Program-made: the position numbers and the translations under genes
In this document: piece after piece, positions 10,790 to 26,018 of the stretch
Position numbering within the stretch: the first letter of the stretch is position 1
Layout of the letters: the number at the start of each line of letters is the position of its first letter
The notes under the pieces: model-generated
Seen by the model: only the letters and a program-made list of their open reading frames with translations
Told to the model about the DNA's origin: nothing
Databases searched by the model: none
Origin: Parundibacterium terreum
GTDB lineage: Bacteria > Pseudomonadota > Gammaproteobacteria > Burkholderiales > Burkholderiaceae_D
DNA: 64,000 nt
Direction: 5' to 3'
Assembly: GCF_014636315.1 (NCBI RefSeq)
Contig: NZ_BMED01000006.1
Location: forward strand, 310,001-374,000

Positions 10790-12997
10790 ATGTTGTCACA
10801 AGAACAGAGGCCTTTGCCCAGCCTGAGCTGGCAACTGACCCTGCAGATCGTCGGACTGGTGCTGCTGCTGGCGGCTATTGTCGTACCGTTGTTCTACTTC
10901 CTGCATGAACGGCCGATGATCAATGCACTCGCCGAAGCCACGCAGATAGCAGCGATACAGAGGGTGGAGAGCAAGCTGGATTCGCAGTTTCGGCCGGTAG
11001 AGCGCATCTTGCTGCAAAGCCTGGCCTGGGGACGTGCCGGCATGTTCAACGAAAAAGACGCAGAGCCGTTCAACCGGCTGATGATGCCCATGCTGCGCAA
11101 TGTTCCCTTCATGTCTTCGGTGGTCACGGCCAACCAGTCGGGCGAGGAAATCCTGCTGATTAAGACACCGGAAGGCTGGAAAAACCGCCTGAGCCGCGTT
11201 GACGAATGGGGAAAGCGGCAGCAATGGCTGGAGTGGAAAAAAGACCTGCCTCCCACTAGCGAATGGACGGAGCGCGATTATGATCCGCGCAGGCGGCCCT
11301 GGTATCAGGGTGCAGCGGCGGAAAAATCCGACGAAGCCATACACTGGTCTGCCCCGTATATGCTGGTGTCCACCGGCGAAGCGGCGATATCGGTGTCGGC
11401 GCGCTGGCGCGCACCTAATTCTGAGCTTACCCATGTGCTTGATTTTGACGTAACGCTGGCCGATATCTCGCGGCTGACCCGTACTATACAAATCGGGCAA
11501 TCCGGCTACGTCAGCCTGCTGACTGAAGACGGCAGGGTGATAGGCTTGCCGCGCCTGCCGGAATTTGGCAGCGAAGCGGCATTGCGTTCGACTATCCTGA
11601 AGAAGCCGCAGGAAATCGGTCTGGGGAAAATCCAGGCGGCGCTGGATATCTGGAAAAACCAGGGCGGCGGATCGCAAAGCCTGCATTTCGACGACGATAA
11701 CGGGGTTAGCTGGATAGGTTCGGTGCGGCCCTTGCAGGTTGGCGAACAGACGCTGGCCATCGTTGCGATTGCGCCGGCCGCCGATTTTTCTTCCATTTCC
11801 ACGCGCCTGGTGCTCTCTGCCTTGCTGGGTTTGCTGGCCGTGGTCGTGATCAGTTACCTTGCCGCGCGGCATATTGTGAAGCGCGTCAGGCAACCCTTGC
11901 AGCAACTGGCGCAAGAGAGCACGCGCCTGGGCGGCATGCAGCTGGACGAGCCGGTCAGCGTGGATGCGCGCTTCAGCGAGATCGTGGAGCTGACCGATGC
12001 GCAAGAGCGCATGCGCCTGCTATTGCTGGAAGCCAGGAATACCCTGGAAGAAGCCAATCATGACCTAGAAGATAAAATCATTTTGCGCACCCAGGAGCTG
12101 GAAACAGCCAATGAAGAAATGACGCAATTGCTGCTGCGCCTGCGCCAGACCCAGGCGCAACTGGTGCAAAGCGAGAAACTGTCCGCTCTCGGTGCGCTGG
12201 TGGCCGGTGTATCGCATGAGCTGAATACACCCATAGGCAATTGCGTGCTGATCGCCAGCACGGTGGAGACGCAGCAGATAGAGTTTGAAGAGCAGTTGAA
12301 AACCGGCCTGCGCCGCAGCGTACTCAGCAATTTCCTGAACGCGCTCCGCGACGGCAACCAGATTTTGCAGCGCAATCTGAAGCGCGCCGCAGAGCTGGTG
12401 CACAGCTTCAAGCAGATTGCAGTGGATCAGAGCAGCGACCAGCGCCGTGAGTTTGATCTGAAGGAAATCGTGCACGAGACCCAGCTGAGCTTGATGCCCA
12501 CGCTGAAAAAAGCCGGCTGCCACTTTATTAATGCCTTGCCGGACGGCGTGATGATGGACAGCTACCCCGGCCCGCTGATACAGATCATCACCAACCTGAG
12601 CACCAACGCGGTGACGCATGGTTTCGAGCATGCAGCAGGAGGAGAGATCCAGGTCAGCCTGGTGGGCGCTGATGAAGCAGGAGAGACACAGGGATGCACT
12701 GGCACTGATACAGACAGCTATGCCGATGAAAATGTGCACCTGCTGTTCCGCGACAATGGTCAGGGCATACCCGAGGCCAATCTGCCGCGCATCTTTGACC
12801 CTTTCTTTACCACCAGGCTGGGGCATGGCGGTAGCGGGCTGGGCTTGAATATCGTCTACAACTTGGTGACGCGCGTGCTGGGCGGCAGCATACGGGTGCA
12901 TAGCGAAGAAGGACGCGGCACCTGTTTTGAAATCATATTGCCGCGCAAGGCGCCGCAAAAACGGCCGGTGGATGAGGAGTTTGAAATCAGTAATTAA
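10790..12997 (+). CDS. Orphan sensor histidine kinase with periplasmic Cache-type sensor
   Basis: ATG at 10790 follows GGAAGGG with 9-bp spacing and gives 735 residues. Membrane helices at about 14-38 and 340-358 enclose a 300-residue periplasmic region typical of dCache sensors (DPRRRPWYQGA near 165, GQSGYVSLLTEDGRVIG near 236). A HAMP-like linker and a long coiled coil (about 405-465) lead to the HisKA motif VAGVSHELNTPIGN, with the phospho-acceptor His at about 476. N-, G1- and G2-box motifs (DNGQGIPEANLPRIFDPFFT, GGSGLGLNIVY) show an intact ATPase. No response regulator is adjacent. Confidence 0.9.
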   Translation: MLSQEQRPLPSLSWQLTLQIVGLVLLLAAIVVPLFYFLHERPMINALAEATQIAAIQRVESKLDSQFRPVERILLQSLAWGRAGMFNEKDAEPFNRLMMPMLRNVPFMSSVVTANQSGEEILLIKTPEGWKNRLSRVDEWGKRQQWLEWKKDLPPTSEWTERDYDPRRRPWYQGAAAEKSDEAIHWSAPYMLVSTGEAAISVSARWRAPNSELTHVLDFDVTLADISRLTRTIQIGQSGYVSLLTEDGRVIGLPRLPEFGSEAALRSTILKKPQEIGLGKIQAALDIWKNQGGGSQSLHFDDDNGVSWIGSVRPLQVGEQTLAIVAIAPAADFSSISTRLVLSALLGLLAVVVISYLAARHIVKRVRQPLQQLAQESTRLGGMQLDEPVSVDARFSEIVELTDAQERMRLLLLEARNTLEEANHDLEDKIILRTQELETANEEMTQLLLRLRQTQAQLVQSEKLSALGALVAGVSHELNTPIGNCVLIASTVETQQIEFEEQLKTGLRRSVLSNFLNALRDGNQILQRNLKRAAELVHSFKQIAVDQSSDQRREFDLKEIVHETQLSLMPTLKKAGCHFINALPDGVMMDSYPGPLIQIITNLSTNAVTHGFEHAAGGEIQVSLVGADEAGETQGCTGTDTDSYADENVHLLFRDNGQGIPEANLPRIFDPFFTTRLGHGGSGLGLNIVYNLVTRVLGGSIRVHSEEGRGTCFEIILPRKAPQKRPVDEEFEISN

Positions 12998-13062
12998 TCA
13001 CCAGCAAATCAGCAGCCAGCCGGTAGCAAGCTACAGTGCTATCCCGCCATGCAGGGAATGAA

Positions 13063-13899
13063 TCAGCCCAGCAAGGCGGCGGTCAGCGAGCGCACTTCTT
13101 CGGCTGATTCGGCGAGTATGCTGGCCAGCGTGCCGTCGCCGATTGCAAAGTCGATCTCGGATGCGTCCTGCTGGCTACTGGCTTCAGAACGCAGATCCAG
13201 CGGCGATGCCACCTTGGCCAGGTCATTGGCCAGGATCAGCGTATCGCCCAGGGTCTCCGGCGGCATCACGCGCAGGCCGTACCACAGCGATTCTACGGCG
13301 GCCGTCACCGGCTTGGGTATCATCAGCTTGGCCAGTACCGCGCGGCCTATGCTGGCCTCGAATGTGGCGGCAGCCTCTTCCAGTTCCCCATCCAGCAAGC
13401 CGGGAAAATGGTCGGCGCGCGACAGCAGGTAAAAGCCGCTGACTTCATGCACGACGCCGGCAAACATCGCGGTATCCGGATCCACATGGCTGACCCGGCG
13501 CGCAATCACATGCGCCAGCGCTGCCACATGGGCGGTGTGTTCCCATAATTTCTGCGCCTTTGCACTGAGCGTGGGGTCAATGATCATGCCGCTGATCTGG
13601 CGTACTACCACCGACGCCACGATGGAATGCAGGGTGCGAAAACCCAGTAGCGGAATCGCGGTACGCACATTGGTGACAGTGCCGCCAAAGCGGTTGTAAG
13701 CGACGGAATTGGCAACCGATACCACGCGGGCTGCGAGCAGCGGTTCGGTCAGGATCAGCTTGCTGGCTGTCTCCAGACTGCAATCGGGATCGTCTATGAC
13801 TTTCTGGATCTTGAGGGAGGCGGCAACATTCGTCGGAAAAATCAATTCTCCGCGCTGGGCTTGTTCCGCTATGCTTCTGAAGGCTTCGACTCTGTTCAT
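13063..13899 (-). CDS. HDOD domain protein
   Basis: Nearly the whole 278-residue protein is one HDOD domain: FPTNVAASLKIQKVIDDPDC, LTEPLLAARVVSVANSVAY, NVRTAIPLLGFRTLHSIVAS and then the C-terminal helices with AMFAGVVHEVSGFYLLSRA. HDOD proteins usually act as signalling scaffolds linked to motility, biofilm or stress. A perfect TATAAT lies 8 bp before the ATG on the coding strand, but there is no good -35 box. No clear Shine-Dalgarno sequence is seen. No functional neighbour. Confidence 0.88.
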   Translation of the reverse strand: MNRVEAFRSIAEQAQRGELIFPTNVAASLKIQKVIDDPDCSLETASKLILTEPLLAARVVSVANSVAYNRFGGTVTNVRTAIPLLGFRTLHSIVASVVVRQISGMIIDPTLSAKAQKLWEHTAHVAALAHVIARRVSHVDPDTAMFAGVVHEVSGFYLLSRADHFPGLLDGELEEAAATFEASIGRAVLAKLMIPKPVTAAVESLWYGLRVMPPETLGDTLILANDLAKVASPLDLRSEASSQQDASEIDFAIGDGTLASILAESAEEVRSLTAALLG

Positions 13900-13946
13900 G
13901 CAAAAAATTATACTCTTGCAAGGCGGAAGTGGCTAAAGGAACAACA

Positions 13947-13974
13947 GGGGCCGGCTGAAAATAATGCCGGCCCC
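13947..13974. terminator. GC-rich hairpin after lipoprotein gene
   Basis: GGGGCCGGC pairs with GCCGGCCCC across a 10-base A/T-rich loop. It lies 60 bp past the stop codon of the minus-strand lipoprotein gene. A clear T-run is missing on either side, so termination is plausible but weak. Confidence 0.45.
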
Positions 13975-14036
13975 CAGGAAAAACAACAAGATTTATTGAT
14001 GTGCGGTAATTATGCAGTAATTGAACTGTAATTGAA

Positions 14037-14498
14037 TTAGCTGGCTTTCAACTGCGAGGCTTTTTCTGCCCTGGCTTTAGCCCATTCGTTCTCAGGATCG
14101 CAGCCGCCCAGTGTCTCCTGGTCCGCTACCACCAGGTCCCAGTTGGCGCTCATTGCAGACGGGCGCTTTGCCGCCAGATAATAGCGGGTGCAGGGTTCCA
14201 CATTAAAGGTAAAGGCTTGCTGGCCGACATCGCGTGCGCCGGGTCCGCGTGCCGCCGTGACCACCAGCGTATGCAGGCCGGGGCCAATCCAGCGCGGATT
14301 TTGCAGCGAAAAATCGCCATCGACGGAAATCACCCTGACACCATAGGTATTGAACTGTATGCGCGAGCTGGCTTGCAGCCTGCCGTCCAGCTGGGACAAA
14401 GGCGCGGTACCGCAGGCGGACAGCAGCAGACTCGCTGCGATGGCCAAAACAGGTGTTGCGCGATGGATGATATTATTTTTGTTGAATAAAGCTCGCAT
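14037..14498 (-). CDS. Small lipoprotein of unknown function
   Basis: The start at 14498 is chosen because GGAGG sits 5 bp upstream; the longer frame to 14615 runs through AT-rich promoter-like DNA. The 153-residue product has a signal sequence with lipobox LLSAC (Cys about 29) and a mature beta-rich domain that contains GPGLHTLVVTAARGPG and FNVEPCTRYYLAAKR. This pattern, a short lipoprotein domain ending in a Tyr/Ala segment followed by charged residues, is seen in many uncharacterised proteobacterial lipoproteins. No function assigned. Confidence 0.75.
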   Translation of the reverse strand: MRALFNKNNIIHRATPVLAIAASLLLSACGTAPLSQLDGRLQASSRIQFNTYGVRVISVDGDFSLQNPRWIGPGLHTLVVTAARGPGARDVGQQAFTFNVEPCTRYYLAAKRPSAMSANWDLVVADQETLGGCDPENEWAKARAEKASQLKAS

Positions 14499-14680
14499 CA
14501 TTTCCTCCGTTAAAGAAATTGTTCGCTGAATCTTTACTTGATTATAGGAAGTGTATTGAGAAAAGTCGGTGACATAATGTATGAAATGTAACATAAAAAT
14601 TACAATTTTGATCACTTTTTGAGTAACCCATTTATTGTAAAAATAATATTGCCAGAATTGAGTTGAAGGCGGGAAAAGAG

Positions 14681-15160
14681 ATGGATGAAACCGAAGGCCA
14701 GATCTATAGCTTATACCTGCGCATGCTGGACGGCTGGAACCGGCGCGATGCAGCGCTGATGGCCGCGCAGTTTGCCGACGACGGCAACACGATAGGCTTT
14801 GACGGCAGCCAGATGCAGGGCCGAGCCGACATACAGGCGACGCTGCAGCAGATTTTTACCCAGCATGCGACGCCGCCCTTTGTCCACAAGTTGAAGGAAA
14901 TCCGCTTCCTGACGGCCGACGTAGCGCTGCTGCGCGCCATTGTCGGCATGGTACCGCCAGGTAAATCAGCGCTGGAACCGGCATTGAATGCAGTGCAGAC
15001 TATCATCGCAAAGTCGCACAACAATAGCTGGCAGATCAGTCAGCTGCAAAACACGCCCGCCGCATTGCATGGCCGCCCGGAACTGGTACAGCAAATGACA
15101 GAGGAACTGGCTGCAGAGCTAAATGCTGGAACAAGCGCAGAACAGCCGCGTAGCAGCTAA
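14681..15160 (+). CDS. SgcJ/EcaC-like SnoaL-fold protein
   Basis: The product has 159 residues from ATG 14681 (an in-frame TTG at 14663 is less likely). YLRMLDGWNRRDAALMAAQF, ADDGNTIGFDGSQMQGR and IVGMVPPGK follow the SgcJ/EcaC branch of the NTF2/SnoaL fold. Members bind small molecules, but no catalytic residues are defined. It is followed 33 bp later by the phosphoesterase gene on the same strand, so co-transcription is possible. Confidence 0.75.
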   Translation: MDETEGQIYSLYLRMLDGWNRRDAALMAAQFADDGNTIGFDGSQMQGRADIQATLQQIFTQHATPPFVHKLKEIRFLTADVALLRAIVGMVPPGKSALEPALNAVQTIIAKSHNNSWQISQLQNTPAALHGRPELVQQMTEELAAELNAGTSAEQPRSS

Positions 15161-15193
15161 AATAGCTTATCGAAGACCCTTAAGTTCCAGATC

Positions 15194-15940
15194 ATGCGCA
15201 TCGCCCTCCTGTCCGATATCCATGGCAACCTGCCCGCTCTGCAGGCGGTATTGCATGACATTGCGCGGCGCGATGTGGATCGTATCGTCAATCTCGGCGA
15301 CAGCCTGTCCGGACCTTTGTTTCCCAGGGAAACGGCAGAGTTCCTGATGCAGCAGGACTGGCCGCAACTGGCCGGCAACCATGAAAGACAGATCCTGGAA
15401 TTCGATCCGCAGCGTGGCGGCGAGTCGGACCGCTATGCGCTGTCTACGCTGACGCCGGATATCCTGGCCTGGCTGAAAACCCTGCCGGGAACGTTGTGGC
15501 TGGATGAAGAGGTTTTTCTGTGCCACGGCACACCGGCCACCGACCTCGTATATTTCCTGGAAACGGTAGAGGCCGCCGCAGTCAGGTTGGCGTCGCCGGA
15601 AGAAGTGGATGCCAGGCTGGGAGGCATCGCAGCGAAAGTAGTCGCCTGTGGCCATACCCATATCCCGCGTGCCGTGCGCTCCAGCAATGGCACGCTGATC
15701 GTCAATCCCGGCAGCGTCGGTTTGCAAGCCTACGACGACGACCATCCGCACTATCACCTGATGCAGAACGCCTCCACCGATGCGCGCTATGCGATCATAG
15801 AAGATCGTCAGGGCACGTGGAGTGCCGCCTTGCATAGCGTGCCCTACGACTATCAGATAGCCGCGGAAGCGGCCTTGCGCAATGGCAGGCCGGACTGGCA
15901 GCATGCCTTATTGACTGGTTACGTATTGCCTGCGGTGTGA
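15194..15940 (+). CDS. Metallophosphoesterase, YfcE/MJ0936-like
   Basis: All five phosphoesterase motifs are present in 248 residues: SDIHGN (about 7-12), GDSLSGP (about 36-42), GNHER (about 60-64), CHGTP (about 113) and CGHTHIP (about 153-159), followed by NPGSVG. These bind two metal ions. The family hydrolyses phosphodiesters or phosphomonoesters. In E. coli YfcE-like proteins the natural substrate is not settled, and it is not predictable here. The ATG lacks a strong ribosome-binding site. Confidence 0.88.
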   Translation: MRIALLSDIHGNLPALQAVLHDIARRDVDRIVNLGDSLSGPLFPRETAEFLMQQDWPQLAGNHERQILEFDPQRGGESDRYALSTLTPDILAWLKTLPGTLWLDEEVFLCHGTPATDLVYFLETVEAAAVRLASPEEVDARLGGIAAKVVACGHTHIPRAVRSSNGTLIVNPGSVGLQAYDDDHPHYHLMQNASTDARYAIIEDRQGTWSAALHSVPYDYQIAAEAALRNGRPDWQHALLTGYVLPAV

Positions 15941-15966
15941 TTGCACCCGGATAGTCTGTAAATCGC

Positions 15967-17115
15967 TCACGCAGAAATCAAGCGCAGGTTGAACGCCCTC
16001 TCCACCAGCCACACGGCGGCAACCAGCGCGATTGCGGCCGATCCCGCGCTGAAAACCAGTCTGCGGTAGGCCCAGGTCTTGCGCAGCGCAAAGGACAGCG
16101 GCAGGAAGACGGCAACGATGGTCAGCTGCCCTATTTCCACACCCAGGTTGAAACCGAGCAGCGCCAGCAACAGCGCCGAATGCGGCAGGCCCAGGTCGCT
16201 CAATACGCTGGCAAAGCCGAAACCGTGTATCAGGCCGAAAGCAAAGGCGACCACCCAGCGCTTGCCTTGGAATAACGGAAAAAGATTATTCAGCGCGGCC
16301 AGGATCACCGACACCGCAATCGCGGATTCCACCCAGCGCGATGGCAGCGCAATGTATTGCAGTGCGGCCAGCGTCAGCGTTATCGAGTGCGCCAGCGTAA
16401 AAGCAGTGACTATCTTCAGCACCTCCAGTGCGGAAGCCTTGAAACTGGTTCCGGCTTCCCATTGTTGATTGCGCGGTACCAGCACGGCAGGCAGCAATAG
16501 CGACAGAAGGAACAGGATGTGGTCAAAACCTATCCAGATGTGCCAGACACCGTGTTTGACATAGTCGGTGAATTGCTGCAGCTTGTCGGTATCGGCCAGC
16601 CTGAATTCCTGCCTGGAGCTATCCGGACTGAAGATCGCGGTAGAGACCATACCCTGCTGGTTCACCAGCTTCAACAGGCCCTTGTGCTGCGGGTCTACAT
16701 CAAATAGCAGGCTGTATTCCACTGTCAGCGTGCTGATGTCTACGCATGCCGCATCAAACATTAGCACGGTATACGCGCCGTCGGTATGGTCGTCCAGCAT
16801 TTGCTTGCCGGGTGTGATGTCGCAAGCATGGCCTCCGCTTTGCAGTTTCAGCCGTGACAGCGCGTACGCTGCGATATCGGCGTGCTTGCTGCGTACCTCT
16901 TCCCAGCTCAGCTCGCCGTTGCCATCGCTGTCCAGGCCGATGGCAAAATCCAGGTCGCGCAAGGCGATATCCCATTGCCCGTGCACTGTATTGTTGTCTA
17001 CGGTCAGGCTCAAATAGCTGTCGCTGGGCTTGTGCGCGCAGGCATTCCCCGCATACAGGCTTGCTGCGAGGCAGAGAAAAGCGAGTAGGGATCGTACGAA
17101 AGCTTTCAACATCAT
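15967..17115 (-). CDS. HupE/UreJ-like membrane protein with EF-hand
   Basis: A signal peptide ends near residue 27. The exported N-terminal domain contains a canonical EF-hand loop, DSDGNGELSWEE, at about 62-73. From about residue 190, six membrane helices carry the HupE_UreJ_2 signature (WIGFDHILFLLSLLLPAVL, LAHSITLTLAAL, LIHGFGFASVLSD). HupE/UreJ relatives are candidate nickel or cobalt permeases, but this branch is uncharacterised. It overlaps the preceding TPR gene by 4 bp and is last in a four-gene operon from 20137. Confidence 0.82.
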   Translation of the reverse strand: MMLKAFVRSLLAFLCLAASLYAGNACAHKPSDSYLSLTVDNNTVHGQWDIALRDLDFAIGLDSDGNGELSWEEVRSKHADIAAYALSRLKLQSGGHACDITPGKQMLDDHTDGAYTVLMFDAACVDISTLTVEYSLLFDVDPQHKGLLKLVNQQGMVSTAIFSPDSSRQEFRLADTDKLQQFTDYVKHGVWHIWIGFDHILFLLSLLLPAVLVPRNQQWEAGTSFKASALEVLKIVTAFTLAHSITLTLAALQYIALPSRWVESAIAVSVILAALNNLFPLFQGKRWVVAFAFGLIHGFGFASVLSDLGLPHSALLLALLGFNLGVEIGQLTIVAVFLPLSFALRKTWAYRRLVFSAGSAAIALVAAVWLVERAFNLRLISA

Positions 17116-18296
17116 GCAGCTCCACCTTGGACAAGTCCGCTCAGCCGGGAAACCAGCGGCGTCAGCGCTGCATCTTGCAGACCGGTTTGCCTGATCCAGG
17201 CCAGCACCGGCGCCGCAGCCCTAATATCCCCAGCTGCAACGGCCGCTTCCAGGTAGATGCGCACATCAGCCGCTTCTTTTTGTACTTCCCAGTTCAGTTG
17301 CGCCAGCTTCAGGGCCGCCGCTGCATTGCCCTTCAGTTGCAGTTCATAGCGCGCCTGCTCGCGCTGATGCACGGTATCGCCGCGCATCATTGCGGCGGCA
17401 AAGCGCTGGCCCAGCGCTTCCCGTTGTGTACTGGCCTCTGCCGCATTGACAGCCTGCAGCGCCAGCGCATAGCGCAGCAGCAGTGCATCCACGCGGGTTT
17501 TATCCTTTAGCAGCGGTATCACCTCTGCTGCCCGTTTACGATCCAGCAGAAAATCGGCATACGAGCCCAGTAGATAACTGTCTGGAGGCAGCAGTTGCAT
17601 TGCTTGCCGGTACCACTGTTCTGCCGCGGCCGTATCGCTGCGGCGTACCGCCATCTCGGCCAGCAAGGTCATGACCCAGACGCTGACGCCGGGATCGGTA
17701 TTGCCATTTTTCTTGTACGCATCCACCAGCATTGCATAACTTTTGTCGGCGTCGCCATTCAGGCTGCCTATATTGCTGAGGCAGGTAGCGGTGATCAGTT
17801 CCGGTGCCAGTGCATACAGGTGCATACAGCTATTTTTCGCCTGAGCATACTGCCCCTGTACCTGCTGCACGGTGGCGCGCGTCAGCCAGGCTTGCGCATT
17901 GTCCCTGTCCTGTTTCAGCACCGCATTCAGATCCGCCAGTGCGGCCGGAAACTGGTGTGTGCTTTGCAGCAGCGTAGCGCGCAAGACCAGCACCGGCACC
18001 GGCGGCTGGGGCAGGTTCCACCAAGGTTTCAGCACCGCCTGTGCATAACCGAGGTAGCGCGGATCGCCGTCATTGCGGGCTTCATTGATGTATTTTTGCG
18101 CCAGTTCGCTGGCGGCTGCCAGATCGTCCGGCTTTTGCGCCAATTGCTTGCGCAGGCGCTGAAAATCCTTTTGTGCAGGATCATTGCGGCTGGGCAGGCG
18201 TTCCACGATTTGTTTGTCGTCTGCGGGGATGTAGGGACGGGCGTGCGCAGTGGCAGCCATTGCCAGCAGCACTACCGATATGATTTTCAACAGCAT
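17112..18296 (-). CDS. Exported TPR-repeat protein
   Basis: The start at 18296 follows AGAGGGGAAACC and gives a 394-residue protein with a signal peptide (cut after AHARP region). The rest is alpha-helical with TPR-like pairs such as ALADLNAVLKQDRDNAQAWLTRA and AAAEQWYRQAMQLLPPDSY. A scaffold role in the periplasm is inferred. It lies between the small lipoprotein and the HupE-like gene and overlaps the latter by 4 bp, so their translation is probably coupled. Confidence 0.8.
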   Translation of the reverse strand: MLLKIISVVLLAMAATAHARPYIPADDKQIVERLPSRNDPAQKDFQRLRKQLAQKPDDLAAASELAQKYINEARNDGDPRYLGYAQAVLKPWWNLPQPPVPVLVLRATLLQSTHQFPAALADLNAVLKQDRDNAQAWLTRATVQQVQGQYAQAKNSCMHLYALAPELITATCLSNIGSLNGDADKSYAMLVDAYKKNGNTDPGVSVWVMTLLAEMAVRRSDTAAAEQWYRQAMQLLPPDSYLLGSYADFLLDRKRAAEVIPLLKDKTRVDALLLRYALALQAVNAAEASTQREALGQRFAAAMMRGDTVHQREQARYELQLKGNAAAALKLAQLNWEVQKEAADVRIYLEAAVAAGDIRAAAPVLAWIRQTGLQDAALTPLVSRLSGLVQGGAA

Positions 18297-18324
18297 GGTT
18301 TCCCCTCTTTCATCTGGCCGTCCA

Positions 18325-18357
18325 GGCAGGTACTCCCAAAGCAAGGGAATACCTGCC
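18325..18357 (-). promoter_or_regulatory. Intra-operon hairpin between lipoprotein and TPR genes
   Basis: GGCAGGTA pairs with TACCTGCC, and CTCCC/GGGA extend the stem around a short A-rich loop. It sits just upstream of the TPR start. No T-run follows, so it is more likely an mRNA-processing or attenuating element than a full terminator. Confidence 0.4.
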
Positions 18358-18372
18358 GTTCTTGCCTGCCTA

Positions 18373-18627
18373 TCAGATAGGTGCGACAGGCTCGGTATTG
18401 TCCGGCGTGGTGACCGTCACCGTATCTACCGATTGCGGCTCCGTCGTATCCGGGCTGCTGCCTACCAGGCTGGCGACCGCGCTATAGAAGGCATCCAGCA
18501 TGCTGACCGGTGTCGTATCCGGCGGTGTTGTCGCTGAACCGCTGGAACTGCTGCCGCCGCAACCTGCCAGCGCCAGTAACAGCATGGATGTGGAAAGCGC
18601 CATTTGGGTTTTTCTGAGTTTCATCAT
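18373..18627 (-). CDS. Small Ser/Thr/Pro-rich lipoprotein
   Basis: The 84-residue product has lipobox LAGC (Cys about 23), then GGSSSSGSATTPPDTTPV and an acidic, Thr-rich tail, and ends in EPVAPI. A ribosome-binding site (GGGAG) precedes the double ATG. The protein seems too small for a catalytic domain and could act as an outer-membrane tether for its operon partners. Not recognised outside the DUF4331-type context. Confidence 0.7.
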   Translation of the reverse strand: MMKLRKTQMALSTSMLLLALAGCGGSSSSGSATTPPDTTPVSMLDAFYSAVASLVGSSPDTTEPQSVDTVTVTTPDNTEPVAPI

Positions 18628-18637
18628 GGTCTCCCGC

Positions 18638-20137
18638 TTAGTGTTTCAGTGAGCCTGGCAACGGTGTTTTCAGGTAAGGAAAACTATTGTCAAAGAAAGT
18701 GGAGTCGAGGTAGGCGCCGTCAGTGAAGTCTATGCTGCCGGACGGTGCATCGGCCGGGACGCAGCCTATGCTGAGTATGCACAGGCGTCCCATCACCACA
18801 CGCAAGGCAATATCCACCACGTCGTCACCGGGGCGGCGGCCGTTAGGGAAACCGGCACTGTCACCACCTATCACGCCCAGGCGGTTTTGTGTGGCCGATA
18901 CTGCGGTGCTGGTATTCAGGCGCAGCATTTCCGATGGCACCACGTTGGCCGGTTGGTTCACGCCTTTCACACCGGTCAGAAAGGCGGCGACCAGGTCATT
19001 GCGCGGGAAGTTGGTCGGGGCCTTGACGCCGGCGCCGCCGAACAGGATCTGCACCAGTGCGGGCAAGGTAGGATTGGTGACATAGTTCAGGAACTGCGCA
19101 TCGCCGCTGGGTTTGCTATGATTGAACTGGTCTTTATCCTTCAGGCCTATCACCACTTCATTCACCAGCGGCATGCCCAGGCGCGATACCTGGGTCCAGG
19201 CGCCGCCTTCTTTCGATGCGGTGCCGGTATTCGGGGTCGGGTTCATCAGGCGGCCCTGCCTGACGCTGGCGGTAGTCCAGCCGCCGATCACGGTTTCCGT
19301 GCCATTGGTCAGGCAGGCGGTGGGGACTTCCAGCTCTATGGACGTGACATTTTTATTCGCCAGATCATCGTGCCCTGCCTTCTCTGCATTCGGGTCGAAA
19401 GCGGTGGCTGGCGCCTGGATATTGATCAGGTCAAAGGTTTCACCGAGGTTGACCACAAACGGATCCTTGCGCTGGCCGACGAACACCTTGCCCGGCGTAG
19501 AGCAGCCCGGGATAGTAATTGCATATACATGCTTGGCTGCATAGCCCGCATAGTCGGGTATCGACTTATTACCTATGTTGTCCACGGGCTTGTCGAAGCT
19601 GGTGCCGCCGCCGCTGGCATTGGTCACCGGTGTACGCACGCCGGTGCGCCTATCACCCTTTACCATCGTGATGGTATAGGTCTCGCGCACATTCAGCCCG
19701 GCAGGGTTTACGCCGTCTATCGCACCGCCATTGATGACCAAGGGAATCGAGACCTGCTTGCCGCCGATTGCCAGCTGGGTATCCTTGTTCTGGTTGTTGA
19801 AGCGGAACTGGAAGGTCAGGTCTTCCTTGCCGTCGCCGTTGTTGTCGATATGGATTTCATACAGCGCATCCGGGTCCATCTCATAGTAATTGGGACCGTC
19901 GCCCGGGCCTTGCAGAGGAATATAGTCGGCAATGATGGTGGTGTATGCGCTGCGGCCGGTTTCATAGCTGCGGAACATATAGAAGTCGGCACCATCGACT
20001 TTCGGCTGGCGCGTGATGAAGGGGGCTTCCCTATGGCTGGATGCCTGTGCCGGCAAGCTCGCCAGTGTGCTTGCCGTGCTCGCCACAATGGCGCTGAGCA
20101 ATAGTCTCGTGGATAATGCAGTGCTGAAAGGTTTCAT
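18638..20137 (-). CDS. Exported DUF4331 family protein
   Basis: This 499-residue protein has a signal peptide (to about residue 32) and the DUF4331 start ASSHREAPFI, then DGADFYMFRSYE and YEIHIDNNGDGKEDLTFQF, a Ca-binding-like loop. GNKSIPDYAGYAAKHVYAI and VFVGQRKDPFVVNLGETFD follow. Asp/Asn-rich loops suggest metal binding on a beta-propeller-like fold, but no activity is known for the family. It is the first gene of the operon with the small lipoprotein, TPR and HupE-like genes. GAGGAG precedes the ATG. Confidence 0.85.
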   Translation of the reverse strand: MKPFSTALSTRLLLSAIVASTASTLASLPAQASSHREAPFITRQPKVDGADFYMFRSYETGRSAYTTIIADYIPLQGPGDGPNYYEMDPDALYEIHIDNNGDGKEDLTFQFRFNNQNKDTQLAIGGKQVSIPLVINGGAIDGVNPAGLNVRETYTITMVKGDRRTGVRTPVTNASGGGTSFDKPVDNIGNKSIPDYAGYAAKHVYAITIPGCSTPGKVFVGQRKDPFVVNLGETFDLINIQAPATAFDPNAEKAGHDDLANKNVTSIELEVPTACLTNGTETVIGGWTTASVRQGRLMNPTPNTGTASKEGGAWTQVSRLGMPLVNEVVIGLKDKDQFNHSKPSGDAQFLNYVTNPTLPALVQILFGGAGVKAPTNFPRNDLVAAFLTGVKGVNQPANVVPSEMLRLNTSTAVSATQNRLGVIGGDSAGFPNGRRPGDDVVDIALRVVMGRLCILSIGCVPADAPSGSIDFTDGAYLDSTFFDNSFPYLKTPLPGSLKH

Positions 20138-20277
20138 GGTCGACTCCTCGAAGGATGGGAAAGCGGATACAGTCTCTTATAATTTGATCTGCATACGGTT
20201 TACGTGAGGAGTACGACGACGGATTCAATTTTGTAAAACTTTGTTGGCTTTGTTAAGTTTGTGGTTCCCAAATGAAA

Positions 20278-20297
20278 CACGGGGCTACCGCCCCGTG
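20278..20297 (-). terminator. Terminator after DUF2855 gene
   Basis: CACGGGGC and GCCCCGTG form a perfect 8-bp stem with a 4-base loop, followed on the minus strand by TTTCATTT. It lies 18 bp past the stop codon at 20315. Confidence 0.7.
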
Positions 20298-20314
20298 CCC
20301 TGCATTTCGCTAGC

Positions 20315-21427
20315 TCAAGCGAGGCTATCGAGGCGTATCACGCGCCCTTGTTGCGCATCCACTTTACCGTCATGCAAATTGCGGATCAGGGTTTGCGCTG
20401 CAGAAAAACCGTCTTCTTCCACCACCTTCATCCACAGATGACCAGGGTCGCTGATGTGCGAAATGAAGCTGGACTGTGCCGCATTGAAGCGCTGGTTCAC
20501 CAGATCCGGCCCCCAGTCCGCATTGCGCTTGCGGATTTGTATAGGCGCAAAATAGAAGGCCGGCTTGGGGCCGGGCAAATCGGCGTCGCTGGGTACATCG
20601 GTATTTTGCGCGGACCCGGCGAAGCAGTCATATACCAGTGCATCGCCATAGTGATGATGGATGCGGGCACGCAAATCTACGTCGCCTGAGAAGTCCACAT
20701 ACATCGTCGGTTTGTCGGTGGGCTGTTGCGCCAGCTCTTCGTAACAGACGGTCTGGTGATAGCAGCCCAGGCCTTCGACAAAGCTGCGGTTGCGCACGGA
20801 TGTCAGCGCCACCAGTTCCACCTGTGGATAATCTTTCAGGCAAAAGGCCGTTCCATATGCCGTCTTGCTGGATGCACTGGAAATCACCAGCCTTTGCGCG
20901 CCGAAGAAGGCGTTGTCCTGCAGGAAGTCCGCCAGCATGAAGGAGGTAATAAACAAGGGACGCACCAGCATCTGGTAGTTTTCCAGCTTTTCTGCATACA
21001 CCGGGTCTGCACTGCAGCGGGTGTACTGGTTATATGCGGATACCAGCGGCTTGCGGTGTTCGGATGCATCGTAGAAGCCGCGCTTGCTGACCCGCTCAGC
21101 CTGCATGCGGATATGGCTGGCGATAGGGAAGTAGCCGTAGAAGCGCTCCCCGATATCCACGCCCTCGGCGGCGGATGCCACCACATCGGCGAATCCCCAT
21201 ACCGGCATATGGCCCCAGCCCTGTATGCCGGTAGGGAAAAATTGCCAGTACTGCATAGAGTCGCCAAAGGCGGCGTAGGTGATATTGTTGGTGGTAATCG
21301 CGCAACGCTGTATCTTCAGCAGTACTTCGCCTTCGGCAACATGCGTATCCTGCTCGCTGTGCACGATACGGCTTTTGTCCAGCGAACTCTTGTCTGTCAA
21401 TAACTGTGTCAGGGTATAGCTGCTCAT
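20315..21427 (-). CDS. DUF2855 family protein (MDR-like)
   Basis: The 370 residues match the DUF2855 family, which is distantly related to quinone-oxidoreductase/medium-chain dehydrogenases: QRCAITTNNITYAAFGDSM near residue 40, GWGHMPVWGFADV near 70, LVISSASSKTAYG near 185. The usual GxGxxG of MDR enzymes is replaced by the SSASSKTA segment. Reaction unknown. A TetR-type regulator is divergently transcribed 114 bp away, which suggests local control. GGAGGAGACACC precedes the ATG. Confidence 0.82.
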   Translation of the reverse strand: MSSYTLTQLLTDKSSLDKSRIVHSEQDTHVAEGEVLLKIQRCAITTNNITYAAFGDSMQYWQFFPTGIQGWGHMPVWGFADVVASAAEGVDIGERFYGYFPIASHIRMQAERVSKRGFYDASEHRKPLVSAYNQYTRCSADPVYAEKLENYQMLVRPLFITSFMLADFLQDNAFFGAQRLVISSASSKTAYGTAFCLKDYPQVELVALTSVRNRSFVEGLGCYHQTVCYEELAQQPTDKPTMYVDFSGDVDLRARIHHHYGDALVYDCFAGSAQNTDVPSDADLPGPKPAFYFAPIQIRKRNADWGPDLVNQRFNAAQSSFISHISDPGHLWMKVVEEDGFSAAQTLIRNLHDGKVDAQQGRVIRLDSLA

Positions 21428-21491
21428 GGTGTCTCCTCCGGATTTATTCTTGATGGATAATGAGTTCTACTGTAAGCGCATACGCCGCCGC

Positions 21492-21509
21492 CGTGGTTCG
21501 GAAACAACG
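21492..21509. promoter_or_regulatory. Candidate TetR operator between DUF2855 and TetR genes
   Basis: CGTGGTT and AACAACG form an imperfect inverted repeat (6 of 7 positions) with a 4-base centre in the 114-bp divergent intergenic region. TetR-type regulators commonly bind such sites in their own promoter. Assigned on position and symmetry only. Confidence 0.3.
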
Positions 21510-21541
21510 TGCGGCTGCAGTGAGATTTTTTTGGAGGCCAA

Positions 21542-22216
21542 TTGGCAAAAAGTAGCGCAGCAGCCACGGACAAACCGAAGGCAGAAGGAGCCAGCAAGCC
21601 GCTGAAGCGGCCTTCGCAGGCCAGGGCAAAATTCACGATACAGGCGATTTATGATGCCTTTGTTCGGATTTGGCAGCAGCAGGGCTGGGCCGGCGTGACT
21701 ACCCGTGCGCTGGCGCTGGAGACCGGTATTGCGGTCGGCACCTTGTATGACTATTTTCCCAACAAGCAGGCGGTCTTGTCGGGCTACGTCAGGCATTGCG
21801 TAGAGCAATTGCTGGATTGTCTGCAGCGCCAGGTGGTGGAAGCCGAGGGCTTGGACTGGAAGCAGCGGGTACAGCGGCTGGTAGCGTTGACCTGTGGCGC
21901 AGAGCAAGCCGGGCTCGCCTATTTTGATCACGACATGCTGATGCTGGAGGGGCAGATAGCCGAAGCCAAGCATCATAGCCGCGTGTATCAGGAGCTGATG
22001 CAAAAATGGCAGGCAGCCTTTGCCGCATGTCCGGATATGCCGCAGCAACCGGCGGAGGAGACGGTGCAGGCACTGCTGCTGGCGGCGTGGGGAGGCAGGC
22101 GCTATCTATTGTTGGTACAGCCGGCAGGCATGGATTTGCAGGGCTGGTCTGCCGAGATGGCGCGCTTGTTCTACGAGGTATTGGACAAGGCCAAAGGGAA
22201 ACCCGGCAATGCCTGA
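21542..22216 (+). CDS. TetR family regulator
   Basis: The start is TTG at 21542 behind a strong GGAGG. The product has 224 residues. After a basic, low-complexity N-terminus (1-25) the helix-turn-helix is clear: GVTTRALALETGIAVGTLYDYFPN at about 50-75, a canonical TetR core with YDYF recognition helix. The C-terminal helical domain (80-215) is the ligand-binding part. It probably represses the divergent DUF2855 gene and itself. Confidence 0.88.
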   Translation: MAKSSAAATDKPKAEGASKPLKRPSQARAKFTIQAIYDAFVRIWQQQGWAGVTTRALALETGIAVGTLYDYFPNKQAVLSGYVRHCVEQLLDCLQRQVVEAEGLDWKQRVQRLVALTCGAEQAGLAYFDHDMLMLEGQIAEAKHHSRVYQELMQKWQAAFAACPDMPQQPAEETVQALLLAAWGGRRYLLLVQPAGMDLQGWSAEMARLFYEVLDKAKGKPGNA

Positions 22217-22242
22217 ACAGGCATTGCCGCAGGTGTAGAGGC

Positions 22243-23919
22243 TCAGGCTTTTTCGAACTTCAGCGTGCGCATCAGTTTGCCGGCATTGGCGATGATGGAT
22301 GCCGCAGGCTTTGCCGTGATGCCGCCGGATGGCCTGCTGTCGTAAGTCTGTGCAGCGGGAGCCGGTACATAGCTGTGATCCAGCTTGAATGCGGAGACGG
22401 TTTGCGCCAGATTGGCCGCCTGTTCTTCCATGCTTTCAGCAGCAGCGGCCGCTTGCTCAACCAGCGCCGCATTTTGCTGCGTCATCTCATCCATCTGCGT
22501 GATCGCGTTATTCACTTCCTCTATGCCCGAGCTTTGCTCCTGGCCGGCCGCAGTGATTTCGGCCATGATTTCCGCCACCCGCTTCACTGAGCTGACGATA
22601 TCGTCCATGGTCTTGCCGGCCGCATCCACCAGCTTGCCACCGGAATTGACGGTCTCTACCGAGTCGCCGATCAGGGTCTTGATTTCTTTTGCTGCACTGG
22701 CTGAACGTTGCGCCAGGTTGCGCACTTCGGAGGCTACCACGGCAAAGCCGCGTCCCTGCTCGCCGGCGCGCGCCGCTTCCACTGCGGCGTTCAGCGCCAG
22801 GATATTGGTCTGGAAGGCGATGCCGTCAATCACGCCGATGATATCGACAATCTTGCGCGAGCTTTCACGGATGGAGCTCATGGTTTCCACGACCTGTCCT
22901 ACTTCCTTGCCGCCTTTCAGCGCATGGTTGCTGGCGGCCACTACCAGTTGATTGGCCTGCCTTGCATTGTCGGCATTATGCTTGACGGTCGCGGTGATTT
23001 CTTCCATCGAACTGGCGGTCTCTTCCAGTGCGCCGGCTTGAGTCTCAGTGCGTGAAGACAGATCCGCATTGCCGACCGAAATCTCTCCCGAAGCAGTAGC
23101 AATCGCATCGGTACCTATGCGCACCTCGCTGACGATGCGGTGCAGGCTGTCGTTCATGTCTTTCAGTGCATTCAGCAATTCGCTGATCTCATCCTGGCCG
23201 GTGATTTCTTCGCGGAAGGTCAGTTCTCCGGAAGCCACGCGTTTGGCAATCGTCAGCGCATCGCGCAAAGGGGTCGTGATGCTGCGCGTCAGGAACAGAG
23301 AAAATGCCGCACCGATGACCAGCGCCACCGCACCGATGCCGAACAGGGAAAAACTCAGCTTCTTGCCTGCCGCCTCGGTGCGCGCAGACAATTCTTGCGA
23401 TGCATCATTCTGCAGTGCGACCAGCTTGTTCAGTTCGACCAGGGTTTTTTGATACAACGGCTCGATCTGGGTAGAGATGACCTTGACTGCCTCGTCATTA
23501 TTGAAAGCAGTAATCAGGCGCAGGGTTTCCTTGAATGGCGCATCGATCTGCGCTTCCAGGTTGCTGATATCGGTGACGACTTTTTTCTCGGCGTCGGTGA
23601 GGCCGCTGGCCAGCAGTTTGTCGCGTGCAGTCTGGAACACCTGGCGCTGTGCCTTGGCGATCGCCTGCTGCTTGTTCATCTCGCTGATTTCGTTTTGCAG
23701 GCCGATATTGCGTATCGCAATGCCGCCTTCCAGCAGGCTGCTTTTCATTGCTGCGGCCTGGGCATTCTTGGTGTTGGCAGCTTCCAGTCCCGCGATCATC
23801 TGTTTGCGGTTATTGGCGCTGAACACGCTGTCGGCCGCCAATACGATGATCAGCATTGCCAATATCACGCCAAAGCCGATAGCCAGCCTGACCCCTATAC
23901 GCAGGTTGCGTAGATCCAT
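22243..23919 (-). CDS. Methyl-accepting chemotaxis protein
   Basis: This is a standard 558-residue chemoreceptor. A first membrane helix (about 10-32), a four-helix periplasmic ligand domain (about 33-190, with [13 protein letters not shown]), a second helix (190-212), a HAMP domain and the cytoplasmic signalling hairpin follow in order. The hairpin tip [18 protein letters not shown] lies near residue 400. Ligand unknown. No che genes adjoin it. GGGAG precedes the start. Confidence 0.93.
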
Positions 23920-24267
23920 AGCATTTCTCCCCGTGGTGCGATATAAATTAAGCTAATGTTTGCCTTGTAGTAATTTTTGAATATTTTTGGCTAACATACA
24001 CGATGCATACAAGCAACTACCGTACCAGAGTTTTTGCAATACAAAATATCGAATGCCCGGCAAATTTCGAAGAAACGACGGCGTATCTCTTATTTCATCA
24101 GCATCATTCCATCCAGTAGCTGAACGCAAATTCACGTTCCTGGTGCATTCATAGTAGAGCAAAATTGCTTGTGTGCATAACCCTCAATGTTGCTATTATT
24201 CTTTCCATAACAAAATATTTGCAGTCTGTTGTATGCGGAAAACATCCTATTTATAAGGCTGGGAAAC
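23920..24267. other. AT-rich divergent intergenic region
   Basis: This 348-bp AT-rich stretch lies between the divergent chemoreceptor and glycine-rich-tail genes and must hold both promoters. I found no sigma-28 chemotaxis promoter match and no confident sigma-70 pair. No RNA gene is seen. Confidence 0.4.
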
Positions 24268-24990
24268 ATGCCACTCTTCTTGCTGATCGTGATCGCCGTG
24301 CTGGGTATCTTCCTGTTTGTTTTTTGGTCACGCTGGCGCAGCGCGGCCCGCGCCGACTACATCCGTACTTATATGTTTCCACCGGGTTTGCTGGACACGC
24401 TGATCAAGCTCAGGCCGGAGCTATCGCTGAAGGACAGGCAACTGGTCGCGCGTGCGCTGCGCCAGTATTTTCTGGTGTACCTGAAGAGCGGCTACCAGCA
24501 CATCTCCATGCCCTCGCAGGTGGTGGATGATCTGTGGCACGAGTTTATTTTGTATACCAAGAATTACGAGCTGTTTTGCCGCAAGGCCTTCGGCCGCTTC
24601 ATGCATCACACCCCGGCCGCCGTGCTGGGCCAGAGCCGGCGCAATAATGACGGACTCAGGCGCACCTGGTGGTTTGCCTGCCTGGAAGAAAACATCAATC
24701 CGCGCAAGGCCACGCGCCTGCCCTTGTTATTCGCATTGGATGGTAAATGGAATCTGGCAGACGGCTTCCGCTACGAGCCGGATTGCAGCGCGCTGAGAAA
24801 AAACGGCGACGGTACGGTGTACTGCGGCGGCGATTTTTCAGGCAGCTCCAGCGACAGCTCGTCCGATAGCGGAAGTTATGATTTCAGCGGCGATAGCGGC
24901 AGCGGTTTCGACAGCTCCGGCAGCAGTTCGGATGGGGGCTCGGATAGCGGGTCAGGCTGCAGCGGTGGGTGTAGCGGCGGCGGGGATTGA
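24268..24990 (+). CDS. Membrane-anchored GRDP-like protein with Ser/Gly/Asp tail
   Basis: Starting at 24268 (240 residues) gives one N-terminal membrane helix (MPLFLLIVIAVLGIFLF). A soluble domain follows with VVDDLWHEFILYTKNYELF and FGRFMHHTPAA, a WH..Y..H pattern found in glycine-rich-domain-protein-like families (DUF1399 type). About residues 190-240 are almost only Ser, Gly and Asp, ending in a Cys/Gly cluster (CSGGCSGGGD). That tail may bind metal or mediate surface contact. Function unknown; the next gene starts directly at its stop codon. Confidence 0.72.
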   Translation: MPLFLLIVIAVLGIFLFVFWSRWRSAARADYIRTYMFPPGLLDTLIKLRPELSLKDRQLVARALRQYFLVYLKSGYQHISMPSQVVDDLWHEFILYTKNYELFCRKAFGRFMHHTPAAVLGQSRRNNDGLRRTWWFACLEENINPRKATRLPLLFALDGKWNLADGFRYEPDCSALRKNGDGTVYCGGDFSGSSSDSSSDSGSYDFSGDSGSGFDSSGSSSDGGSDSGSGCSGGCSGGGD

Positions 24991-25476
24991 GTGAAAATAA
25001 AATCAGTCATGAAATCTAAATTTCTTCTCATTTTACCCTGCATACTCGTGCCAATGATAGTGCGCGCTGCTCAGATCCCCGTATCGGAAGAGGTGCAAAT
25101 TGAGCCGGTGGCTTCATTCACTACGTTCGAGTTGTGGAATTCAAAAATTCCGACCAATAGCAGCTTTGGCTTGGTGGCGGTTAACTACAGGATGATTGAT
25201 TCAGAAACCCCAATTGTCCGAGGAAAATGGCGTGAGTGTGGTCTTGTTATGATTGGGACCGGGGACCTTGCAACTCGGCCTGTTGCTTTCCGAATATGGA
25301 CAAAGCAAGCATGCGACTTATCGATGCAAGACCCAAAAGAATCAGAATCGGCGGGTGAAATTCGGATTAACTTCTTCGTCAACGCCGGGGTTTTGTTACC
25401 AGTTAAGGTATCAAGTGAGCTTGTTGTTACTGTATCAGAAAGAAAAATTGGGCGAATACGGGCTGAAGGGGAATAG
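24991..25476 (+). CDS. Exported hypothetical protein
   Basis: The frame begins with GTG directly after the stop of the previous gene; ATG at 25009 (MKSKFLLILPCILVPM) is an alternative start. It has a signal peptide ending at about VRAAQ and a 130-residue mature part rich in beta strands, with two cysteines (GKWRECGL and KQACDL). Base composition is more AT-rich than in the neighbours. I do not recognise a family. It may form a pair with the GRDP-like protein. Confidence 0.6.
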   Translation: MKIKSVMKSKFLLILPCILVPMIVRAAQIPVSEEVQIEPVASFTTFELWNSKIPTNSSFGLVAVNYRMIDSETPIVRGKWRECGLVMIGTGDLATRPVAFRIWTKQACDLSMQDPKESESAGEIRINFFVNAGVLLPVKVSSELVVTVSERKIGRIRAEGE

Positions 25477-25495
25477 CGATAGCGGAAGAATAGAT

Positions 25496-25540
25496 GTACT
25501 CGTAAATACAGCCTGTCTTGCGCAGGCTTGATACGAGTAC
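25496..25540 (+). terminator. Two-part hairpin after exported hypothetical gene
   Basis: GTACTCGTA/TACGAGTAC form an outer 9-bp stem and AGCCTG/CAGGCT an inner 6-bp stem. It starts 20 bp after the stop codon at 25476. There is no T-run after it, so it may be an mRNA 3' end element. Confidence 0.5.
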
Positions 25541-25643
25541 CGTCAATCAGCCTGAAAGCACGTCGCTCTGGCGTTGAAATACCATTTCAATTATCGCGAG
25601 CCATTTCCTGCCCGGCAAAGGGCAAGCATCCATCAAGGCCTTG

Positions 25644-26018
25644 TTATTCGGCACCCACCCACTGCGGCGCGGGATCATAGTAAAACTTTTCCTTCACTAT
25701 CTTCTCCCCTTCCCAAGTCTGGTAAGCCAGCTCATCCAGCCGGAAGCGGCGATTATCATGGGTCGTGAAATCGAATATCCAGTGGATCACCGCATGGTCG
25801 CCGGCGATGAAGAAAGGCTCCACCGTTTGCGCTTTTATCGACTTGAATTTGCGTAGTACCTGATGCTCGTGTTCCAGCAGTTGGGGCAGGCCCGTTCTGG
25901 GCGGCTGGTTGTTTTCTTGCATGCTGGCATTGTCGGCATAGAATTCCTGCATTGCCTGTACGGTCTGGTCGCTAACGACGAGTTCTATTAACCGTTCTAC
26001 ATTTTGCTTGCTTGGCAT
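25644..26018 (-). CDS. NTF2/SnoaL-like small protein
   Basis: The 124 residues show the typical NTF2-like layout: helix with AMQEFYADNASMQEN, then strands with FIAGDHAVIHWIFDF and FRLDELAYQTWEGEKIVKEK. Members of this fold act as small-molecule-binding or isomerase-like proteins; no catalytic residues can be named. It is followed by the sugar uptake cluster but is separated from it by 150 bp. Confidence 0.78.
   Translation of the reverse strand: MPSKQNVERLIELVVSDQTVQAMQEFYADNASMQENNQPPRTGLPQLLEHEHQVLRKFKSIKAQTVEPFFIAGDHAVIHWIFDFTTHDNRRFRLDELAYQTWEGEKIVKEKFYYDPAPQWVGAE

Follow-up and report, generated by a model that had tools for sequence, protein, structure and literature searches.

The stretch of DNA analysed here (the window) comprises 64,000 nucleotides from Parundibacterium terreum (Burkholderiales; NCBI RefSeq assembly GCF_014636315.1, contig NZ_BMED01000006.1, positions 310,001 to 374,000). 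Between positions 15967 and 20137 it carries four minus-strand genes, encoding in order of reading a DUF4331 protein, a small lipoprotein, a TPR protein and a HupE/UreJ-2 permease, which together are a candidate for part of a nickel-uptake system. An earlier reading of this DNA (the original prediction) had described four genes on one strand, the last two overlapping by 4 bp, and a check of coordinates, start codons and stop codons bears this out. The TPR and HupE genes share ATGA at 17112-17115, and the gaps ahead of them are 10 bp between the DUF4331 and lipoprotein genes and 76 bp between the lipoprotein and TPR genes. The four genes are as follows.

18638..20137, minus strand: DUF4331 gene, exported product of 499 amino acids (PF14224, E 1.4e-155, 519 bits)
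18373..18627, minus strand: small lipoprotein of 84 amino acids (lipobox LAGC, found by eye)
17112..18296, minus strand: exported TPR protein of 394 amino acids (several TPR Pfam models, best E 1.9e-6)
15967..17115, minus strand: Ang-1 plus HupE/UreJ-2 permease of 382 amino acids (PF13795, E 4.4e-50; model with a predicted local distance difference test score (pLDDT) of 93.7)

This gene set is found well beyond the window. A survey of the phylum (398 genomes) gave a DUF4331 match in 22 genomes, full-length (E under 1e-100) in 16. In 12 of these 16, all but G015, G246, G309 and G323, a same-strand PF13795 gene follows at no more than 5 kb downstream. The original prediction had proposed looking for DUF4331 together with HupE_UreJ_2 and TPR genes within 5 kb and had named the lack of a conserved neighbourhood as evidence against itself; the neighbourhood is conserved. 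Relatives of the TPR protein, the permease and the lipoprotein were found near DUF4331 in 64, 57 and 43, respectively, of 80 named loci, TPR and HupE relatives being counted within 5 kb on either strand. The 80 are not a random sample but the loci of highest similarity, for the most part beta- and gammaproteobacterial, and related genomes are counted separately. Where more than 3.5 kb of downstream sequence was available (68 loci), TPR and HupE were both present in 51, TPR only in six, HupE only in one and neither in 10. The six TPR-only loci belong to Acinetobacter, and where HupE would be expected they have a TonB receptor gene and another gene of no clear family. The cassette lies nearly always on a single strand, an exception being L057, whose TPR and HupE genes run opposite to DUF4331.

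Plasmids extend this picture. DUF4331 occurs in 33 plasmid records, of which 14 neighbourhoods were inspected (one without annotation). DUF4331, TPR and HupE are all present in five proteobacterial plasmids, and three others, two from Streptomycetaceae and one from Nostoc, have a DUF4331-TPR-permease set. Miltoncostaea has the DUF4331-TPR pair, which in two plasmids of Adhaeribacter (Bacteroidota) stands next to a TonB receptor gene. The DUF4331-TPR-permease module is thus seen in three phyla, and in a fourth as DUF4331-TPR-receptor. The Streptomycetaceae and Nostoc permeases belong to NicO, a nickel/cobalt transporter family (Pfam 30-44 bits, cut-off 27.7), and each of these replacements for HupE has His-Pro-Leu-Gly-Asn-Phe after an AxA site. 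Since both NicO and HupE/UreJ-2 are found there, two different nickel/cobalt transporter families fill one slot. The original prediction had also said that a DUF4331 gene commonly found without the other three would count against it, and this was seen in part, in the 10 of 68 loci without TPR and HupE and in three Rhodobacterales plasmids (L157, L196 and L197) that have neither gene and in which DUF4331 instead has as neighbours a gsp cluster for type II secretion and a gene for an A24 prepilin peptidase. One Streptomyces locus (L192) also has a fasciclin gene close to DUF4331.

The gene set recurs across families and phyla beyond chance, and chance adjacency is ruled out by the neighbourhood surveys. 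A phage origin is not supported either, as none of 65 viral stretches matching a peptide pattern encoded a relative.

Within the operon and just ahead of it, six smaller features bear on what the proteins may do.

20201..20227, minus strand: promoter-like motif of extracytoplasmic function (ECF) type, TGAATCC-N16-CGTA, 63 bp upstream of the DUF4331 start, the only match in the window
20033..20041, minus strand: codons S33-S34-H35, predicted to give a mature Ser-Ser-His end after an AQA signal-peptidase site
17032..17034, minus strand: His28 codon of the permease, predicted mature N-terminal His (His in 56/56 relatives)
16594..17034, minus strand: Ang-1-like exported beta-sandwich domain, residues 28-174 (Foldseek and structure alignment to 9GCE)
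16897..16932, minus strand: EF-hand-like loop D62-E73 (D62, D/N64, D/N66 and E73 in 56/56)
16519..16542, minus strand: HX5DH motif, H192-D198-H199, in the permease domain (55/56 each, the remaining one a gap), named as in the HupE literature

The DUF4331 protein matches PF14224 over its full length (1-421 of 421) and above the gathering score, is the sole match in its genome, and has its closest named relatives in Undibacterium (81-82% identity). At its predicted mature end, A32, S34, H35, R36, E37 and P39 are invariant in 80 of 80 relatives and S33 is kept in 79, so that the predicted third mature residue is His in all (SSH 79/80, XSH 80/80), and the Pfam match itself starts at S33. Beyond the Proteobacteria, the proteins from Streptomycetaceae and Miltoncostaea also have SSH, and the distant one from Nostoc has SDH. 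If the signal peptidase cuts after A32, the mature protein would start with Ser-Ser-His, and X-X-His at a free N-terminus is the pattern of amino-terminal Cu(II)- and Ni(II)-binding (ATCUN) sites, which bind both ions; we take the end of DUF4331 to be a site of this type. The low-confidence model of DUF4331 has no fold match in the PDB at E 0.001, and a sequence search of the PDB gave nothing credible for DUF4331 or the permease and none for the partner receptor described below. Our search of the open-licence literature found no paper on DUF4331, supplements, which may name it, lying outside that search.

The permease scores 169.8 bits against PF13795 (cut-off 24.5), the only other match in the genome being a weak one just above cut-off, and it has no match up to E 1 to PF04955, the HupE/UreJ nickel permease family proper; it is therefore filed under PF13795, and the relatives L092 and L168 do match PF04955. 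A Foldseek search with its model placed PDB 9GCE at the top of the list (E 2.6e-6). On realignment, residues 28-174 of the model lie on 1-157 of the chain (Z 13.1, root-mean-square deviation 2.9, 135 aligned, 16% identity), the alignment starting at His28 of the model and residue 1 of 9GCE. His28 follows A-C-A, of which A25 is kept in 51 and A27 in 55 of 56 relatives (the 56 of 57 HupE relatives with E under 1e-20). The structure alignments used 51 of these 56, and 48 of the 80 DUF4331 relatives. Exported domains of this kind have been named anglerases, and 9GCE is RbAng-1a, a domain of another HupE/UreJ-2 protein (PMC12537917). By sequence and model, the operon permease is an anglerase, with cleavage predicted before His28. 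The EF-hand that the original prediction saw in the exported part is a fair loop, with positions 1, 3, 5 and 12 kept in 56/56, and falls below the cut-off of Pfam EF-hand_1 (E 0.11). Its suggestion of calcium as substrate is not supported: the loop sits within the Ang-1 domain and may only stabilise that domain.

Of the two proteins between them, the lipoprotein belongs to no Pfam family, and the TPR protein keeps H114, C157 and C172 in 64 of 64 relatives. In Acinetobacter, a TPR protein from a locus without HupE (L081:11800-12921) has a His-rich predicted mature start, HPKHHHEE.

A TonB-dependent receptor links the cassette to the outer membrane. In Undibacterium pigrum (L038) it lies within the operon, and 26 of the 80 loci have a receptor of its subfamily no further than about 9 kb from DUF4331, two of them (L053 and L076) only as pieces. 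Counted at any place in the genome, the receptor is present in 41/47 DUF4331 genomes compared with 36/398 in the phylum, and in 7 of the 16 survey genomes with full-length DUF4331 (hypergeometric P 1.7e-4), neither figure being corrected for kinship. The first of these comes from 48 of the 80 loci, mostly on longer contigs, with 47 genomes searched. The receptor beside the Adhaeribacter genes matches that of the window genome at 345 bits. Remnants of the receptor 3' end lie beside HupE at L076:14735-15571 and L153:13358-13882, which suggests that a receptor gene has decayed in some Comamonadaceae; the L076 genome has a full copy elsewhere. In a gammaproteobacterium a BlaR/BlaI-like pair, recognised by eye, stands beside the receptor (L171:2658-4060) and is perhaps another regulator of it.

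The window genome has one receptor copy, away from the window, and the next gene is nikR (NF002815, 186 bits, cut-off 83; PF08753, E 1.4e-30). Upstream of this receptor are two perfect NikR-type boxes, GTATGA-N15-TCATAC; such N15 boxes were first seen here by eye and then scanned for, the spacing in the E. coli NikR box being 16. Of the 40 receptor copies, 30 were scored for perfect boxes, and 10 of these loci hold one, against a mean of 0.05 in shuffles; at five of the ten, 1 to 1.4 kb separate the box and the receptor frame. Eight of the 40 survey copies of the receptor, spread over 7 genomes, have nikR no more than 3.5 kb away, a count in which 24 of 50 NikR places were entered, chiefly from genomes also having the receptor. 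Receptor, nikR and urease alpha stand together in L164, L165 and L167, and the receptor has nikR as its neighbour in the DUF4331 genomes of L041 and L071. In Variovorax (L076) nikR directly follows HupE in the DUF4331 operon, and a box with one mismatch lies upstream of DUF4331. The window genome has urease, and strong urease matches occur in 36 of 48 genomes including its own (37 at E 0.001), a figure without a phylum baseline, making a need for nickel plausible and, by urease, not universal. E. coli-type N16 boxes gave chance-level matches only in the window and in L119. As separate observations, the receptor-nikR operon of the window genome adjoins a CusA/CzcA-type resistance-nodulation-division efflux operon and a two-component regulator (L119:12926-18545), and nikR is divergent to another HupE/UreJ-2 gene in G187, in a stretch without DUF4331 (L168:7475-9206).

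The two operons also share a promoter-like motif. Of 76 regions ahead of DUF4331, 50 carry TGMATCY followed by CGTA, at a spacing of 16 bases in 49 and of 17 in one, and none was found in 20 rounds of shuffling; the regions are those of 75 of the 80 loci plus the window, five having been dropped for lack of an ATG or of upstream sequence. The same motif is found upstream of the receptor-nikR operon of the window genome, and a one-base variant, seen by eye, upstream of that genome's own ECF-rskA pair; the relaxed motif that fits this promoter was adopted after it had been seen there. Across the whole genome there are 17 matches, and 2 in a backwards control. Among the 80 loci, 30 have an ECF sigma gene near DUF4331, three of these matching only at E 1e-6, and 22 an anti-sigma gene of RskA type.

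What points to nickel is the combination of an outer-membrane receptor encoded apart from the operon, nikR and an ECF-like regulon. We infer that the operon encodes that half of a TonB-dependent system for nickel uptake which works in the periplasm and the inner membrane, with a probability of roughly two in three, the metal being deduced from the ties of the partner receptor to nikR, NikR boxes and urease. Nickel, free or chelated, would pass the outer membrane by way of a dedicated receptor, whose gene accompanies nikR at another place in this genome and in some relatives is part of the cassette or adjoins it. DUF4331 would then hold Ni(II) at its free Ser-Ser-His end in a square-planar ATCUN-type site, the lipoprotein and TPR protein would dock DUF4331 and organise the hand-over, and Ang-1 and HupE would move nickel over the inner membrane. 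Both operons would be turned on by an ECF sigma factor paired with an anti-sigma factor of RskA type, and NikR would shut off the receptor operon when nickel is plentiful. The broader proposal of the original prediction, a periplasmic metal-linked system feeding a permease, is thus partly supported, by the conserved synteny, the anglerase fold of the exported domain and the links to nickel genes.

Several results weigh against nickel or against parts of this scheme. The DUF4331 model has no confident fold (pLDDT 65), and the Adhaeribacter proteins have SSHREAP but no AxA site ahead of it. A scan of the window for NikR boxes with up to three mismatches gave 10 matches where 13 were expected, none of them upstream of DUF4331; no N15 or N16 box with at most one mismatch occurs in L001, which covers the window operon, and a perfect NikR-type box occurs in 0 of the 80 DUF4331 loci. 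Nor is nikR enriched in DUF4331 genomes (1/16 and 6/47, compared with 48/398 in the phylum), and strong urease matches are absent from 12 of the 48 genomes. Only 6 of the 17 motif matches are free of a crossing open frame of more than 150 amino acids, so many of the matches are probably chance, the DUF4331 and receptor sites being among the six. Two more of the six precede fasciclin and amine-oxidase (amine oxidoreductase) genes (L175 and L181), implying a regulon wider than nickel or metal uptake. The matches that cross long frames and the five distant receptor boxes slightly temper the nickel reading.

The main rival keeps the architecture and changes the cargo, with the N-terminal His and SSH hooks capturing copper (or copper and nickel, or zinc) for import by the permease. 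ATCUN sites also favour copper, as do sites with an N-terminal His. The next PDB neighbours of the exported domain, of the same fold, are the zinc-binding ZrgA and PA4063 (Z 9.9-11.4), and the receptor-nikR pair in L162 lies near a CsoR-like frame (seen by eye) and a heavy-metal P-type ATPase (Pfam). Copper heads the rivals because the published Ang-1 prefers it in vitro, with reported binding of copper at 74 nM and of nickel at 220 nM (PMC12537917), the latter counting in favour of nickel. We nevertheless consider this cargo unlikely, given the association of the partner receptor with nikR, with NikR boxes and with urease, and given that the permeases in the slot belong to the HupE/UreJ-2 and NicO families. 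A second rival, rather less probable still, is an envelope-stress module, in which an ECF/RskA regulon responds to metal or oxidative stress and the role of the cassette is metal detoxification or export. It draws on the motif shared with the fasciclin and amine-oxidase genes, on the efflux operon adjoining the receptor-nikR locus, and on the NicO partners, which are nearest to the efflux protein RcnA (NCBIfam, below cut-off) and so also speak against uptake. TonB receptors and NikR-repressed genes, however, generally serve import, and HupE/UreJ proteins are described as nickel importers (PMC11247825 and PMC4284471). Least probable of all is cobalt as the main cargo, for cobalamin: HupE has been tied to cobalt in cyanobacteria (PMC4284471), but Rfam gave no match, and thus no cobalamin riboswitch, in window positions 12000-26000 and only a tRNA in six loci, and the links are to nikR and urease instead.

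If nickel is the cargo, a further and more tentative step is to regard DUF4331 as a protein metallophore: an exported protein whose free Ser-Ser-His end would grip Ni(II) and relay it between the TonB receptor, or the cell surface, and a permease with an N-terminal His, in a DUF4331-TPR-permease module with interchangeable permeases (HupE/UreJ-2 or NicO). This idea is possible rather than probable. In Rhodobacterales, the type II secretion system encoded alongside may even carry DUF4331 out of the cell.

The DUF4331 family is widespread and exported, and a nickel role, if true, would be its first testable function, would tie it to the newly described anglerases and would fill in the route of nickel from the outer membrane to the cytoplasm in bacteria that need it, for example for urease. 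The conserved SSH end offers a single simple point at which to test this.

Much of the proposed system is of known kinds, namely an anglerase permease and a NikR-linked TonB receptor, and what is new is the conserved presence of DUF4331 with its TPR partner. TonB-dependent nickel receptors, including FrpB4 and Bll6948, are listed in PMC11247825; the receptor here resembles them, by context rather than by sequence comparison, in standing beside nikR with NikR boxes, and differs in its link, through co-occurrence and a common promoter-like motif, to a DUF4331-TPR-permease operon. The permease shares with RbAng-1a the two-domain build, the predicted His at the N-terminus after the signal peptide and the immunoglobulin-like beta-sandwich fold, whereas the neighbours reported for anglerases are DUF4198, indigoidine-synthase-like and PfkB genes, with no DUF4331-TPR-receptor set and no DUF4331 in the main text (PMC12537917). 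The closest parallel to DUF4331 is DUF4198, an exported nickel-binding protein with an N-terminal His (PDB 9GCB; PMC12537917), whose gene in L158 is divergent to DUF4331. Both are exported, have an N-terminal metal site (predicted in DUF4331) and occur near TonB receptors and NikR, but they belong to different Pfam families, and the His lies at position 1 in DUF4198 and at position 3 in DUF4331.

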